From assembly GCF_016864555.1 (NCBI RefSeq), contig NZ_CP044011.1, forward strand, positions 1,035,001-1,099,000: a stretch of 64,000 nucleotides of DNA, written 5' to 3'. Shown here piece after piece: positions 20,718 to 26,186 of this stretch (position 1 is its first letter; each line of letters starts with the position of its first letter). The stretch comes from Sinorhizobium sp. BG8 (GTDB lineage: Bacteria > Pseudomonadota > Alphaproteobacteria > Rhizobiales > Rhizobiaceae). Under the pieces are notes generated by a model that was not told the DNA's origin, searched no databases, and saw only the letters and a program-made list of their open reading frames with translations. The translations under genes were made by a program, and so were the position numbers.

Positions 20718-21824
20718 TCAGAGGCGTCCGAGACGCACGATATGCTGATCCCACGCGACATTGTCGTGCGCGCCGGCGAAGTACCCCCCATAGGAGGATA
20801 CGGCAAAACCCTGCTGGGCTGGTGCGACCCCGGCGGCATCCGTCACCGTTTCCTGCCGGACGACTGCACCCGTCGCTGCGTCGAGCGTGACGGCAACACT
20901 GCCCTTTGGCGAAGTGATGCCGACGGTATTTTCCCGCCGATTGACGGCGATCGCCCCGACATAGTTCGCAAGCGCCGACGTCGTTTCCTCCGGCAGGTCG
21001 ACGAACGCAATGTCCTCGCCAAGTGAAAACGAGCCGACGAGCGGGGGAAGATCGTTGCGTGCACCCTCATACTGACAGGCAAACCAGATGCGGCCGTCGC
21101 TCCCCAGGTCGACATGGCGCGTCGAAAGCTGCCTGAGCGTTGCCGGCATGTCGTGCTTTTGCACGAGTGCGCCCGTTGCGGCGTCGATGAGCGCCAGCGA
21201 CGGCTCCATGTGGTCGAGATTGAGTTTGGTGCGTCCGAAGTCCGGGTGCGTTTCGATCCCGCCATTGGCCGCGATCAGTGTCCTGCCATCGTCGGAAACG
21301 GCAAGGTCATGCGTTCCGATCCCGTGGGTGTCGAATTCGCCCACCCTTCTAAATCCGTCCCGGGCGTCGTAGAGCCCGATGACGCCGCGATTGGCGTCGA
21401 AGTCGTTCTCGCTCACGTACAGCAAATGCCCGTTCGGCGAAAAACAGCCGTGCCCGAAGAAATGTCGTCCTTCGCGCGCCTGGATGACGATCGGCTCGCC
21501 GGTGCCGCGGGTGTCGATCACCATCGCGGTGGTCCCGGGGCGCCTAGCAAAAGCGACAGCCCTGCCGGAGACGCCGTCGAACGCCATCCCGTGGCCGCGG
21601 GTCGGTAGCGGTACGCGCTCGATGATGTCCCCGCGCTCAGTCACGGTCGCGATCCCGTAGCTGCCGTCCGGATCCCTGAAACCCGATGCATAGACGGCAT
21701 CGGCTCTGTCGAGTGCGAACACCGCCTTAGGAGCGAGCGTCGAAGCCCACGTCGCTCCCGCCATGCGCAGGAAGGCGCGCCGATCGATCAGGGGGCTGCG
21801 CATGGGGTCGAGCCGCGAGCCCAT
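20718..21824 (-). CDS. DUF1513 beta-propeller-like exported protein
   Basis: A 368-residue protein of the DUF1513 family, last gene of the imelysin cassette. The N-terminus has a twin-arginine-like signal (DRRAFLRMAGATWASTLA), which suggests export folded. The body has repeated blades with HGMAF, HFFGHGCFSPNGHLLY, GTHDLAVSDDGRTL and VDLGSDGRIWFACQYEG, as in seven-bladed propellers. The biochemical role is unknown. Its ATG overlaps the stop of the upstream imelysin gene (TGATG), so it belongs to that operon. Confidence 0.82.
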   Translation of the reverse strand: MGSRLDPMRSPLIDRRAFLRMAGATWASTLAPKAVFALDRADAVYASGFRDPDGSYGIATVTERGDIIERVPLPTRGHGMAFDGVSGRAVAFARRPGTTAMVIDTRGTGEPIVIQAREGRHFFGHGCFSPNGHLLYVSENDFDANRGVIGLYDARDGFRRVGEFDTHGIGTHDLAVSDDGRTLIAANGGIETHPDFGRTKLNLDHMEPSLALIDAATGALVQKHDMPATLRQLSTRHVDLGSDGRIWFACQYEGARNDLPPLVGSFSLGEDIAFVDLPEETTSALANYVGAIAVNRRENTVGITSPKGSVAVTLDAATGAVVRQETVTDAAGVAPAQQGFAVSSYGGYFAGAHDNVAWDQHIVRLGRL

Positions 21825-22960
21825 CAGTCGCCGTCCGAGAAGGAGAAGCCCGCGCCCATTCCGATCGCGGCACCATACTCGTCGTTCAGACGGACGATGA
21901 GATCTCGCGTGTTGACGAGAAGGAAGTCGATCTTTGCCCGTTGGTTTTCGTCGCCGACGGCATTCTCGATATCCGGGTCGATGTTGGGGCCGATGCGTGT
22001 CAGCGATTTCATCACGAATTCGATCGAGCCCGCAATCGAGGCCACACCCGGGTCGAGCAGCTGCTCCATCCCCGATTTCGTGAAAAGCGTTTGCAGTCCG
22101 GCAATGTTCGCGTCGATCGATTTCCAGGTGTTGCCGGATCGCCAGTAGATCGCCGATTTCGGCCGCACCGGTTGATCCTTGCCCTTGTAGAAGGTTTCGA
22201 TCCGCTGGTCCCTGACGGTTTCCGCCCCATGGACGAGGATGCCAAGAAGTGCGGTCATGGCCTCTTTGCCGTCGCGGAATTCGGGATTATCAGGTCCGGG
22301 ATGCTTCCAGGCGTCCTGGATGCCGCCGGGCTTCTCCCATTCGGCGACAAGTTCTGCCGCGATGCTTTCGATGTTGGACGCGACCGCTGCCCCGTAGCGG
22401 CAGCGGAAGCTTTCCTTCTCCGACAAAGCTTCCTTGGCACCGGAGCCGTAAAGGACGAATTCGAGGGCTCCAAGGCCCTGCATCGCCACGCTCTTTCCTT
22501 TGAGCGCGGGCGCCTCGGTATCGGCTTCATCCGGCTTTGCGAGCAGTGCCTGCACCTGCTTGAGGCCGGTGCTCTTGCGGTCCGGATAGAAGAGGATACG
22601 CTCGAAGCGATTCTGGGAGAGAACCGGACCGATGCGCACGATCTCGATCATGGACCAGGTGCGGACCACTTCGTCGAAGGCGGCGTGCGCCGCATCTTCC
22701 GTGGAGGCCGATGGTGCCGCGCAGTAGGTTGCCATCGCCTTGGTGAGCGCCTGCGCCGCGCCATGGAAGGTGCGGTAGCCCGGGCGGATGACGTCGTCGA
22801 CCGCACGGCCCATCACCTGCTCGACCTGCGCCTGCGTGAGCGTGACCGGCGCCGGAGCGTTGCCTTCCTGCGCGACGGCGGGCGGCGAGACGGCAAAAGC
22901 CGCAACGGCGAGCGCCAGGCTTGGCAGGAGGCGTGAAAACAGGTGTCGCGGCAAACGCAT
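21824..22960 (-). CDS. Imelysin-family (M75-like) exported protein, second copy
   Basis: A 378-residue helical protein with a Sec signal peptide (residues 1-30, ending PPAVA) and the imelysin fold. The family GxHxxE motif is not intact: residues 162-167 read GLGALE, with Gly replacing the His. The Glu is kept, and RYGAAV and GILVHGAETVRDQRIE follow. It probably serves an iron- or metal-linked periplasmic task together with its neighbours. It starts on the stop codon of the di-haem gene. I chose the start giving a proper signal peptide. Confidence 0.85.
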   Translation of the reverse strand: MRLPRHLFSRLLPSLALAVAAFAVSPPAVAQEGNAPAPVTLTQAQVEQVMGRAVDDVIRPGYRTFHGAAQALTKAMATYCAAPSASTEDAAHAAFDEVVRTWSMIEIVRIGPVLSQNRFERILFYPDRKSTGLKQVQALLAKPDEADTEAPALKGKSVAMQGLGALEFVLYGSGAKEALSEKESFRCRYGAAVASNIESIAAELVAEWEKPGGIQDAWKHPGPDNPEFRDGKEAMTALLGILVHGAETVRDQRIETFYKGKDQPVRPKSAIYWRSGNTWKSIDANIAGLQTLFTKSGMEQLLDPGVASIAGSIEFVMKSLTRIGPNIDPDIENAVGDENQRAKIDFLLVNTRDLIVRLNDEYGAAIGMGAGFSFSDGD

Positions 22961-24486
22961 CAGAGGGACTCCAGGAAAGCCAAAAGTGTGTCTCGATCTG
23001 TCTTTTCGAGCTGCGCAAAGCGGTCGCGTGCCTTCTCGGCCTCGCCACCATGCCAGAGGATCGCCTCCGTCAGGTTTCGGGCTCGGCCGTCGTGCAGGAA
23101 GAATGTGTGTCCGCTCACGGTCTGCGTAAGGCCGATACCCCAAAGCGGCGGCGTGCGCCACTCGCTTCCGCTGGCCGAGCCGACCTGCTGGCCGTCGGCA
23201 AGCCCCTCGCCCATGTCATGCAGCAGGAAATCGGAATAGGGCCAGATGAGCTGGAAGGCTTGTGCCTTGTTGGCCGCATCCCGCCGCGTCACGAATTTCG
23301 GCGTGTGACAGGAAACGCAGCCGATCTCGTAGAAGAGCTTTTTTCCGGCGAGCGTTTGCTCGAAGCTTGCCTTGCGCCGCGCCGGGACCGCGAGGTTCTC
23401 GGCGTAGAACGTGACGAGGTCGAGAACGGGTGCGGGCGCCTCCGTGTCGCCTAGGCGAGGTTGCACGCCGGTCGGAAGCGCGAGGCAGTCGACCTGAGCC
23501 TCGGTGCAATCGCCGTGGGACCGTTTTACCTCCGGGGTGGAGATGCCGATATCGTTGGCGAAGGCCTCGGCGCTCTGGTGGCGGACGGTAGCGTTCTGCG
23601 CCTTCCACCCGAAGCGTCCGAGCGCCGGCTTGCCTGTTGTAGGGTCCTTGACGATAGCGGCGCGGCCGCTGATGCCGTCGCCGTCGAGATCATCAGGATC
23701 GGCTTTGGCGAGGATGTCGACCTCGTGGATGGCCTGGATCAGACCGAGGCCGCTCATCGGTTGGGTGACGCGCGGCGAAAGCGTCGTCGCCTTGTCGAGG
23801 GGGCCATAGGCCAGGTCGGCAACGGAGTAGCGCGGGTGGCGAAGCGAAACGCGTTCGCCGCCCGCAAGTGTGACGCTTTGCTCCTCGTATTCGATGACCA
23901 TGCGACCCTCGCGTGCGAGCCCTGGAACCGCGAGGTCCTGCAGTTGCCTGCCGTATGTGGGGTCGGGAAAATTCAGAACGTCGAGATCGTCGACCCTTGC
24001 CCTCTCTTCCGCACTCGAGGCTTCCCGGGCCAGCCGCAGGAACATCGAGGTCGCGTCCGTACTTCCCTCCGGCGGGCGGCCGCGGCCGTCCTTGAGGTGG
24101 CAGGTGTGGCAGGCGCGGGCATTGAACAGCGGGCCAAGACCGTCGGACGCCTGTGTGGAGGAGGGGGAGGAGACCCAGAGCTTGCGAAACAGCGCGTTGC
24201 CGAGCTTGAAGGCCTCTTCTTCCTTGAACGTAATGTTGGCTGAGAAATGCGAGAAGATGTCCGCATTGATGGGGGCGATCGTCGTCGCCGCGCCGCCGGA
24301 CATTGCTTCATATTGTTCGGGCTTGGAGAAATCGGTCGTGGGCTGCGTCACCCTGGCAACACGCACCCGGTCCTTCGCCGACAGATCGTGCCTTTCAGTC
24401 GGCAACGCCGACATCGATGGCTCGGCCCCGGTGCTGTCCGTCGACCCCAACAGGACCAGAAAAAGGGCCGGAACCAAACGGTGCAT
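22960..24486 (-). CDS. Di-haem oxidoreductase-like cytochrome (DUF1111/DHOR)
   Basis: A 508-residue periplasmic c-type cytochrome, often annotated as thiol oxidoreductase. It has a signal peptide and two CxxCH haem sites, CHTCH at 126-130 and CVSCH near 389. FNARACHTCHLKDGRG and PLWGIGLTQTVSGHTFFLHDGRARNL are typical of the DHOR family, which is related to MauG/CcpA peroxidases. It lies between two imelysin genes. A redox step on iron or a thiol is plausible but unproven. Confidence 0.88.
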   Translation of the reverse strand: MHRLVPALFLVLLGSTDSTGAEPSMSALPTERHDLSAKDRVRVARVTQPTTDFSKPEQYEAMSGGAATTIAPINADIFSHFSANITFKEEEAFKLGNALFRKLWVSSPSSTQASDGLGPLFNARACHTCHLKDGRGRPPEGSTDATSMFLRLAREASSAEERARVDDLDVLNFPDPTYGRQLQDLAVPGLAREGRMVIEYEEQSVTLAGGERVSLRHPRYSVADLAYGPLDKATTLSPRVTQPMSGLGLIQAIHEVDILAKADPDDLDGDGISGRAAIVKDPTTGKPALGRFGWKAQNATVRHQSAEAFANDIGISTPEVKRSHGDCTEAQVDCLALPTGVQPRLGDTEAPAPVLDLVTFYAENLAVPARRKASFEQTLAGKKLFYEIGCVSCHTPKFVTRRDAANKAQAFQLIWPYSDFLLHDMGEGLADGQQVGSASGSEWRTPPLWGIGLTQTVSGHTFFLHDGRARNLTEAILWHGGEAEKARDRFAQLEKTDRDTLLAFLESL

Positions 24487-24510
24487 GGCGAACTCGTCTT
24501 CGCTGGGATC

Positions 24511-24540
24511 GAACCGCGCCCGAAAGATCGGGCGCGGTTC
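24511..24540 (-). other. Strong intercistronic hairpin within the imelysin operon
   Basis: A perfect 13-bp stem (GAACCGCGCCCGA with its complement) closes a 4-base loop in the 65-bp gap between the first imelysin gene and the di-haem gene. No T-run follows on the minus strand, so it looks like an mRNA-stabilising or attenuating element rather than a full terminator. Confidence 0.7.
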
Positions 24541-24551
24541 GTATTGGCGTC

Positions 24552-25832
24552 TTATTGGAAGACGGCGTTAGGATTGTCCAGGCTATCCGAACCTTCAAGT
24601 TCGATCTTTCCGAGGTCGAGTGCCGCGATCACGCGCTCGATGGTCTTGGTCTGGTCGACCAGTCCGTCGATCGCAGCCTGCACGACCGCATTGCCCGCGG
24701 CATTGCCTTCGCCGATCATCTGGTCATAGGCCTCGGTGGTCTCGGCGCGCTTCGCCATGGCCTCCATCGCCGTGACCGTCGTCGCGAGCTTGGTCTTCAT
24801 CTCAGTGTCGAGTGCCCCGTCCTTGGCCGCAAGCAGCTCAGAGAGAGAGGGACCGATCATCTTCGTACCGTCGGTCCGGGTATATTCGCCCGTGTAGACG
24901 GTCTGGATTCCGAGCGCATCGTTGAGGTGCGAATTGTAGGTGTTGTCGGAGAAGCAATCATGCTCCTCTTCCGGATCGTGAAGAAGCAGGCCGAGCTTCA
25001 TGCGTTCGCCGGCGAGCTCGCCATAGGAGAGCGAGCCCATGCCCGTCAGCATCGCCGAGAGGCCGGCCTTCGGATCGGCATTCACGGTATTGGTCGCTTC
25101 ACCTTCCGGCGCCCAAGCGGCAACCATCTCTTCGAGATCCGTCACGAGGAGGGATGAGGCCGCCTTCAGGTAGGCAGCCCGGCGATCGCAATTGCCGCCC
25201 GTGCAATTCTTGGTGTCGTAGTCCGTGGCCGGACGGTTGCCGGCGCCCGGTCCGGTGCCGTTCAGATCCTGGCCCCAGAGGAGGAACTCGATGGCGTGAT
25301 AACCGGTCGCGACGTTGGCTTCCACGCCGGCTGCTTCCTGCAGCGAGCCAGAAAGAAGCTCCGGTGTGATCTTCGAGGCGTCAACGTCCTTGCCGTCGAT
25401 CTTGATGGACGGATTGGCGATGACGTTCGCGACGAATAGCGCGTTCTCGTCGCTTTCCGTGCCATAGCTCGCATCGACATAGTCGATCAGGCCCTCGTCG
25501 AGCGGCCAGGCGTTTACCTTGCCTTCCCACTCGTCGACGATCGCATTGCCGAAGCGGTAGGCCTCGGTCTGCTGGTAGGGAACGCGCGCCTTGATCCAGG
25601 CCGCACGAGCGGCCTTGAGCGTTTCGTCCGTCGGGGTGGCAATCAGCGCGTCGATGGCGGCATCGAGTTCCTTTGCCGTCGCCAGGGAATCGGAGAATTT
25701 CGCGTAGGCAATGTCGGAATAGTGCTTCACGACCGCGGCGGCGTCAGTGGCAGCCGCTGCGGGCTGCACCGCAAGGGCGGAAGTTGCCGCCAGCAGCGCA
25801 AACGCGGCGGCGCGGAGGAGGGAAGTTTTCAT
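24552..25832 (-). CDS. Imelysin-family (M75, IrpA-like) exported protein, first copy
   Basis: A 426-residue protein that opens the cassette. It has a Sec signal peptide (residues 1-27, ending QPAAAA). The intact family motif GYHAIE is at 177-182, followed by FLLWGQDLNGTG. A C-terminal region with HDCFSDNTYNSHLNDALGIQ fits the IrpA subgroup. Homologues are iron-regulated, and the EfeO-like M75 domain is linked to iron uptake. I chose the ATG at 25832 because AGGAG lies 7 bases upstream and a signal peptide follows; the frame is open further upstream without family similarity. Confidence 0.9.
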   Translation of the reverse strand: MKTSLLRAAAFALLAATSALAVQPAAAATDAAAVVKHYSDIAYAKFSDSLATAKELDAAIDALIATPTDETLKAARAAWIKARVPYQQTEAYRFGNAIVDEWEGKVNAWPLDEGLIDYVDASYGTESDENALFVANVIANPSIKIDGKDVDASKITPELLSGSLQEAAGVEANVATGYHAIEFLLWGQDLNGTGPGAGNRPATDYDTKNCTGGNCDRRAAYLKAASSLLVTDLEEMVAAWAPEGEATNTVNADPKAGLSAMLTGMGSLSYGELAGERMKLGLLLHDPEEEHDCFSDNTYNSHLNDALGIQTVYTGEYTRTDGTKMIGPSLSELLAAKDGALDTEMKTKLATTVTAMEAMAKRAETTEAYDQMIGEGNAAGNAVVQAAIDGLVDQTKTIERVIAALDLGKIELEGSDSLDNPNAVFQ

Positions 25833-26186
25833 GGCGACTCCTGGTGTCCCGTTCAGGTGGTGCCCTCCCCATTGCGCCTCCCCTCGGGGCAAAGACATCG
25901 CGGGCGCGAATGCGTTCAGGCTCAAAGTGTCTTGGCGCAAAAACAAACTGGTGTCAAAGCGTATAGTTTAGAACTGTTTGAACCTCGAAAATCTGCCCTT
26001 CGCGTGGGTCGACGTCGCCGGCTCCCGTGCCAATTGGTTGAGGATTTTTCCGGCCAAATCCCTGTAGCGAGAAAACTTTGCCAACGGGAAATGCAACGAA
26101 CAGCGTTTTGGTGCTTTTACTGATCAAAAAATGTGCTGTATGGTCAAATCGTAGCCATTGCCACATACTCTCCCTGCACGGAAAAT
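25833..26186. other. Divergent intergenic region between imelysin and HPP genes
   Basis: A 354-bp region without a supported gene. It should carry the promoters of the imelysin operon (minus) and the HPP gene (plus). The minus strand has a CTTTGACA-like -35 candidate near 25952-25958 (plus-strand coordinates), but no convincing -10 element 17 bp away. The only clear motif is the Irr-like site listed separately. Confidence 0.5.
25966..25983 (-). promoter_or_regulatory. Possible iron-control (Irr/ICE-like) site upstream of the imelysin operon
   Basis: The plus strand reads GTTTAGAACTGTTTGAAC. The left arm contains TTTAGAA, a full half-site of the rhizobial iron control element (TTTAGAA-N3-TTCTAAA). 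The right arm does not form the inverted half; instead it is a near direct repeat (GTTTAGAAC / GTTTGAAC). It lies about 134 bp before the first imelysin start. Treat as a candidate only. Confidence 0.35.

Follow-up and report, generated by a model that had tools for sequence, protein, structure and literature searches.

What kind of task could hold two imelysins, a two-haem protein and a protein of the DUF1513 family together in one exported unit, and is the arrangement found in Sinorhizobium sp. BG8 a new one? We analyzed this question within a stretch of 64,000 nt, here called the window. The first-pass annotation had placed a four-gene cassette at 20718-25832, and this is borne out by the gene calls and by Pfam profile matches to all four families. 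The four genes are contiguous and run in the same direction on the minus strand from position 25832 down to 20718, in the order M75a, DHOR, M75b and DUF1513. The features of the cassette are as follows.

24552 to 25832, minus strand: M75a, an imelysin of the ICMP/IrpA type, 426 aa (PF09375, 301 bits)
24510 to 24541, minus strand: a perfect hairpin of 14 bp in the gap between M75a and DHOR (MFE -36.7 kcal/mol, z -5.48)
22960 to 24486, minus strand: DHOR, a di-haem oxidoreductase with two CxxCH motifs, 508 aa (PF06537, 320 bits)
21824 to 22960, minus strand: M75b, an imelysin of the IPPA type, 378 aa (PF09375, 166 bits)
20718 to 21824, minus strand: DUF1513, a Tat-type protein with a predicted seven-bladed beta-propeller fold, 368 aa (PF07433, 374 bits)

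Export signals had been claimed for all four products, and inspection agrees with this: the leaders of M75a, DHOR and M75b are of the Sec type and lack a lipobox, and that of DUF1513 is of the twin-arginine type (DRRAFLR). The junctions had been described as "three TGATG-type junctions or a short gap". This description is right for the DHOR/M75b and M75b/DUF1513 junctions, which are TGATG overlaps, but the M75a/DHOR junction is a gap of 65 nt which contains the perfect hairpin and has no U-tract. An overlap of 1 or 4 nt between DHOR and M75b is retained in 67 of 78 loci, and stems of at least 8 pairs are found in the M75a-DHOR gap of 29 of the 55 Rhizobiaceae-type relatives. With this hairpin M75a may be made at a different level from the other three proteins, possibly in excess, as one might expect of a protein that binds its substrate. 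The GC content of the cassette is 0.62-0.65 and the flanks are alike, so that a compositional island is ruled out. PADLOC gave no match, and a link to phage defence is thus unsupported. Downstream lie the genes of a TspO homologue and of a GNAT acetyltransferase, and upstream the divergent gene of an HPP-type membrane protein; none of them has a visible tie to the cassette.

The arrangement is not new. It is a rhizobial copy of the known iron-regulated ICMP/IrpA cassette, since operons of this kind have already been published for P. aeruginosa, V. cholerae and Rhodobacter sphaeroides. In P. aeruginosa, the Fur-regulated operon PA4370-4373 encodes a di-haem protein besides two imelysins (Xu et al. 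2011, PMC3143127), and in V. cholerae VC1264-1267 change with an iron regulator (PMC7600106). In both PA4370-PA4373 and VC1264-VC1267, as in the window, an imelysin with a GxHxxE motif and one with a GxxxxE motif flank the two-haem protein within an iron-linked operon (PMC3143127, PMC7600106). Unlike these Fur-linked operons, the cassette studied here has an Irr-box-like operator and an M75a without a lipobox. The fourth gene of the PA4370-PA4373 and VC1264-VC1267 cassettes is DUF1513. Xu et al. 2011 name the di-haem protein of P. aeruginosa an EfeB homologue; the protein in the window is a DHOR and not a DyP peroxidase.

In R. sphaeroides hemP-irpA-bfd-bfr and RSP_1545-1543 are probably one transcript, which is repressed by IscR (PMC4618611), and without iron irpA goes up 4-fold and bfd 2.7-fold (PMC3413700). 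This iron-responsive operon agrees with the window in its order of genes, with irpA followed by a two-haem thiol oxidoreductase and by two proteins annotated as hypothetical (PMC4618611), but it also contains hemP, bfd and bfr and is controlled by IscR and the Iron-Rhodo-box and not by Irr. From the gene order and from the relative L192 we infer that the two hypothetical proteins are M75b and DUF1513. The earlier statement that related imelysins are iron-regulated therefore stands, as homologous operons are under control by iron, IscR or Fur (PMC3143127, PMC4618611, PMC7600106). The iron response had, however, been treated as open, although it has already been measured for the homologues in R. 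sphaeroides and V. cholerae.

A survey of the synteny of DUF1513, DHOR and M75 had been proposed, and when it was run the order proved to be kept almost throughout. Among 47 DUF1513-bearing loci fetched from Pseudomonadota, a set which leaves out the window's own locus, 44 have all four genes in the same order. The other three have DHOR-M75b-DUF1513 with M75a not adjacent, and DHOR, M75b and DUF1513 occur together in all 47. Two further loci have M75a-DHOR without M75b and DUF1513. A collection scan with M75a as query, chosen because DUF1513 is too weakly conserved for this purpose, gave 80 named loci, that is, relatives close to the M75a of the window, from Rhizobium, Sinorhizobium, Agrobacterium, Shinella and Mesorhizobium and also from Achromobacter; the same order and strand is found in 78 of these, and the remaining two are short contigs. 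DUF1513 scores above the cut-off in 15 of the 115 genomes of a class-level sample, all 15 with the full M75a-DHOR-M75b-DUF1513 run, and in 55 of 299 Pseudomonadota genomes of a phylum-level sample. The arrangement is far beyond chance.

The two imelysins are clearly different from each other. M75a has an intact GxHxxE motif (GYHAIE, 25287-25304) and a C-terminal EGSDSLDNP. It is 57-68% identical to 14 homologues from other families, its nearest solved chain is the ICMP-type 7xrx (E 2e-118), and GYHA[IV]EFLLWG is retained by 78 of the 80 named M75a proteins. In M75b the histidine of the motif is lost and the GxxxxE form remains (GLGALE, 22460-22477); none of 70 scored M75b proteins has a histidine at this position. 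M75b is only 22-33% identical to its homologues and has few invariant residues, though a C-terminal DGD is present in 78 of 78 loci, and its best solved match is 3pf0 (IPPA, E 8e-4). These differences match the split into ICMP-type and IPPA-type imelysins made by Xu et al. Metal sites at HxxE have been described for the related M75 protein EfeM (PMC9174327), whereas Xu et al. found in thermofluor assays no specific binding of ferric ion or haem by two imelysins. In the original reading of ICMP the imelysins are metallopeptidases, and the operon would then degrade peptides. In its favour are the placing in MEROPS family M75 and the name, which is insulin-cleaving metalloproteinase. This reading is very improbable and largely refuted by structure, as the crystal structures contain no peptidase-like site (PMC3143127), and the motif histidine is missing from M75b.

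DHOR has its two c-haem sites at Cys126-His130 (24097-24111) and Cys390-His394 (23305-23319), and two CxxCH motifs are present in the DHOR of 78 of 79 named loci. Besides the cysteines of the haem motifs C327, C334, H423, H465 and H479 are invariant, and so are Trp and Tyr residues. The nearest solved folds of the AF2 model (pLDDT 79.6) are, weakly, bacterial di-haem cytochrome c peroxidases (E 1.7e-4). Its two haem sites place DHOR with the di-haem CcP/MauG superfamily, and from the fold similarity it may act as a peroxidase or maturase. In the literature searched an enzymatic activity is reported neither for this type of DHOR nor for any DUF1513.

The fold similarity to cytochrome c peroxidases would fit a periplasmic peroxide defence for conditions in which free iron makes peroxide dangerous, with DHOR as the peroxidase and the imelysins sequestering iron. 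A similar set is known from the spirochaete Leptospira, where the LruB cluster LIMLP_14170-14180 has, like the window, a cytochrome c thiol peroxidase between two imelysins; peroxide induces this set, and the two imelysins respond to iron limitation as well (PMC7567364). DUF1513 has not been reported there. Moreover, the bfd gene of the R. sphaeroides operon has been described as OxyR-dependent (PMC3413700). The control that has been measured is, however, mostly exerted by iron regulators, and peroxide defence leaves the strict linkage to DUF1513 unexplained. We consider this alternative unlikely.

DUF1513 is mentioned nowhere in the literature searched. Its AF2 model is a propeller of the seven-bladed type (pLDDT 87.5), and a twin-arginine motif is present in the DUF1513 of 76 of 78 named loci, which predicts export. 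In an alignment of 15 sequences five histidines (H78, H125, H172, H237 and H361) are invariant, which lie on different strands along the chain, together with R76, R94, R236 and D359. The nearest PDB folds are hydrazine synthase chain B, YncE, methylamine dehydrogenase heavy chain and BtuG; with 1349 Foldseek matches at E<=0.001 the propeller similarity is generic. One could imagine that DUF1513 is a metallo-propeller which together with DHOR makes up a new kind of metal oxidoreductase in the periplasm, by which the imelysins are loaded or unloaded. The five invariant histidines would hold the metal centre, and filling of this centre in the cytoplasm would explain the Tat export. We give this speculative reading as a whole a rather small chance.

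The propellers of methylamine dehydrogenase heavy chain and hydrazine synthase chain B partner MauG-like di-haem proteins. DHOR might therefore be a maturase similar to MauG or MbnH, which creates a metal site by covalent modification of an imelysin or of DUF1513 and does not itself oxidize iron in turnover. Its grouping with the di-haem cytochrome c peroxidase folds, its invariant Trp and Tyr residues and a second CCP_MauG gene that follows the cassette in the relative L166 are in line with such a role, as are the nearest folds of DUF1513. Propellers are common, however, and the Foldseek similarity is generic; in addition, the alignment of M75b, with its few invariant residues, offers no obvious conserved Trp or Tyr target pair. 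In our view a maturase is unlikely.

Some relatives carry additional genes within the cassette. A pair of genes, for a bfd-like protein and a bacterioferritin, separates M75a from DHOR in L192 and in 17 named loci, among them those of Mesorhizobium, Ahrensia, Hoeflea and Oryzicola; the bacterioferritin scores above the curated cut-off and the Bfd match is under the gathering score. In three genomes (L063, L066 and L180) a multicopper oxidase takes this position, and both of the oxidases whose complete sequence was examined have a Tat-type leader. The DHORs of these three cassettes share about 44-45% identity among themselves and 37-43% with two DHORs from oxidase-free cassettes, so that they may represent one subtype and not three separate insertions. 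Insertions of these kinds, be it the multicopper oxidase or the bacterioferritin, point to iron handling outside the cytoplasm. The redox step on the metal, which the first-pass annotation had offered as an idea, gains indirect support from the oxidase between M75a and DHOR.

The inserted oxidases could also be taken as a sign that the cassette serves mainly copper, with M75a binding copper and DHOR, occasionally helped by the multicopper oxidase, oxidizing Cu(I). Their best models are indeed CopA/CueO, though under the cut-offs, and the imelysin-like Algp7 has been crystallized with Cu(II) (PMC9174327). But multicopper oxidases are equally able to be ferroxidases, and the context is all iron, namely Irr-box-like sites, bfd-bfr, the hemP-linked operon and control by Fur and IscR. 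A copper cassette appears quite improbable to us.

Upstream of M75a we found two elements which could explain the control of the cassette in Sinorhizobium.

25967 to 25982, plus strand: a candidate operator that resembles the Irr box (ICE), TTTAGAACTGTTTGAA, at a distance of about 135-150 nt upstream from the start of M75a
25929 to 25958, minus strand: a conserved promoter block, TTTGACACCAGTTT, with a putative -35 TTGACA and a weak putative -10 CAAGAC at 17-nt spacing

The ICE of the window is degenerate and imperfect in one half. Even with one mismatch allowed, the Irr-box pattern matches once in the window against 0.09 matches expected; the 5.67-Mb genome has six distinct sites and none for the reversed pattern. 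Other genomic sites include ones next to mbfA, nfu and iscS, as would be expected of an Irr regulon, and IrrA itself is encoded in the genome, with a score above the curated cut-off. In 55 homologous loci of the Rhizobiaceae type TTGACAC is invariant and the block TTTGACAC[CA]AGTTT nearly so. A degenerate ICE lies about 25 nt upstream of the block in roughly 42 of these 55 loci, and an in-register ICE is missing from about 12. A near-perfect ICE is present in 11 Mesorhizobium-type relatives, there upstream of another TTGAC-type promoter. We dropped TTTGACAC[CA]AGTTT as a regulon motif because it occurs only once in the genome at one mismatch. A RirA IRO box (TGA-N9-TCA) is absent upstream of the cassette and present in only 3 of the 55 Rhizobiaceae-type promoters, and a search of the leaders against Rfam had no match.

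If TTGACA is the -35, as we assign it, the centre of the ICE falls near -52, where activators can bind. Whether Irr activates or represses a gene depends on the position of its site (PMC7762939). As the Irr-box-like site lies shortly before the -35, activation by Irr at low iron is probable for this operon. The remaining ICE sites identified in the genome suggest the opposite direction, as they flank the kinds of genes which Irr represses (mbfA and iron-sulphur genes), and from these repression would be predicted. The weak -10 makes the placement ambiguous between activator and repressor. The first prediction of such control in the alpha-proteobacteria was probably that of Rodionov et al. 2006.

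An exported unit with a role in iron is well supported by the invariant gene order, the Irr-box-like sites, bfd-bfr in relatives and the published control by iron, IscR and Fur. The link to iron is strong, and a redox step on the metal is plausible; the single machine of four proteins which the first-pass annotation had suggested is a more tentative idea. As explanation of the whole we favour, with slightly better than even confidence, that this rhizobial ICMP/IrpA cassette captures and oxidizes scarce iron in the periplasm. We suggest that this could proceed in the following steps. Irr would switch the operon on at low iron in Sinorhizobium sp. BG8. M75a with its intact GxHxxE site would then bind ferrous iron in the periplasm, and DHOR would take electrons from the bound metal, or use peroxide, so that the iron is oxidized and becomes fixed on the two imelysins. 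Without its histidine ligand M75b might act as partner or acceptor, and the conserved histidines of the Tat-exported DUF1513 could dock or hold a metal or an electron-transfer partner. Finally the oxidized iron would be passed to a ferric permease encoded elsewhere. The metal oxidation, the partner roles, the direction of Irr action and the hand-over to the permease are steps which we infer; the hand-over has no named partner because the genome encodes no FTR1/EfeU permease.

In its logic the proposed mechanism is similar to EfeUOB and EfeUOB-M, where an M75 imelysin and a periplasmic haem protein are also iron-regulated and a redox step on iron has been proposed. The cassette is nevertheless not a member of EfeUOB, since three defining features are missing: PF03239, the FTR1/EfeU permease family, has no match in the genome or the operon, both imelysins match PF09375 only and have no EfeO-type cupredoxin domain, and a DyP-type EfeB was not found in the cassette. 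Here the PF06537 protein DHOR takes the place of EfeB, and M75b and DUF1513 are extra.

The cassette is iron-regulated where this has been measured, and the variant cassettes and the five invariant histidines now allow specific tests in place of a vague guess. Our analysis adds to the published operons the degenerate Irr-box beside a perfect -35, the near-perfect boxes of the relatives, the bfd-bfr and oxidase insertions and the histidines of DUF1513. In further relatives TonB receptors lie upstream of the cassette (L074 and L176), and ApbE is inserted into the cassette of L181.

Upstream of the cassette, the operon M75a-DHOR-M75b-DUF1513 that encodes two imelysins, a di-haem oxidoreductase and a propeller protein, lies the following element:

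window 25929-25958: promoter block, TTTGACAC[CA]AGTTT

The block is nearly invariant across 55 Rhizobiaceae-type loci and occurs only once in the genome of Sinorhizobium sp. BG8. This degree of conservation exceeds what a plain -35 element would need.

The Mesorhizobium-type loci carry a strongly conserved leader block of 37 nt 5′ of M75a:

about 100-250 nt upstream of M75a, in loci L135, L137, L139, L140, L145, L146, L148, L021, L028 and L033: leader block, CTTTGATGTCTGGGCCTTGAACCCTTTCGATTGGAGG

A short reading frame possibly follows 3′ to this block. The Rfam scan of the leader-block loci gave no family match among the loci scanned. In two other loci (L183 and L192) putative short frames, recognised by eye only, resemble HemP and directly precede M75a, an arrangement similar to that of the published Rhodobacter operon (R. 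sphaeroides hemP-irpA-bfd-bfr-RSP_1545-1543).

A small cytochrome c gene has a further candidate Irr-box-like site (L009, G000:C2:662940-662955) at a distance of about 0.5 kb.

The cassette itself is interrupted in one genome (L181):

L181:5075-6133, + strand: ApbE-family gene (FMN transferase family), between M75a and DHOR

The cassette of locus L164 has a tandem DHOR pair, two adjacent frames upstream of M75b.
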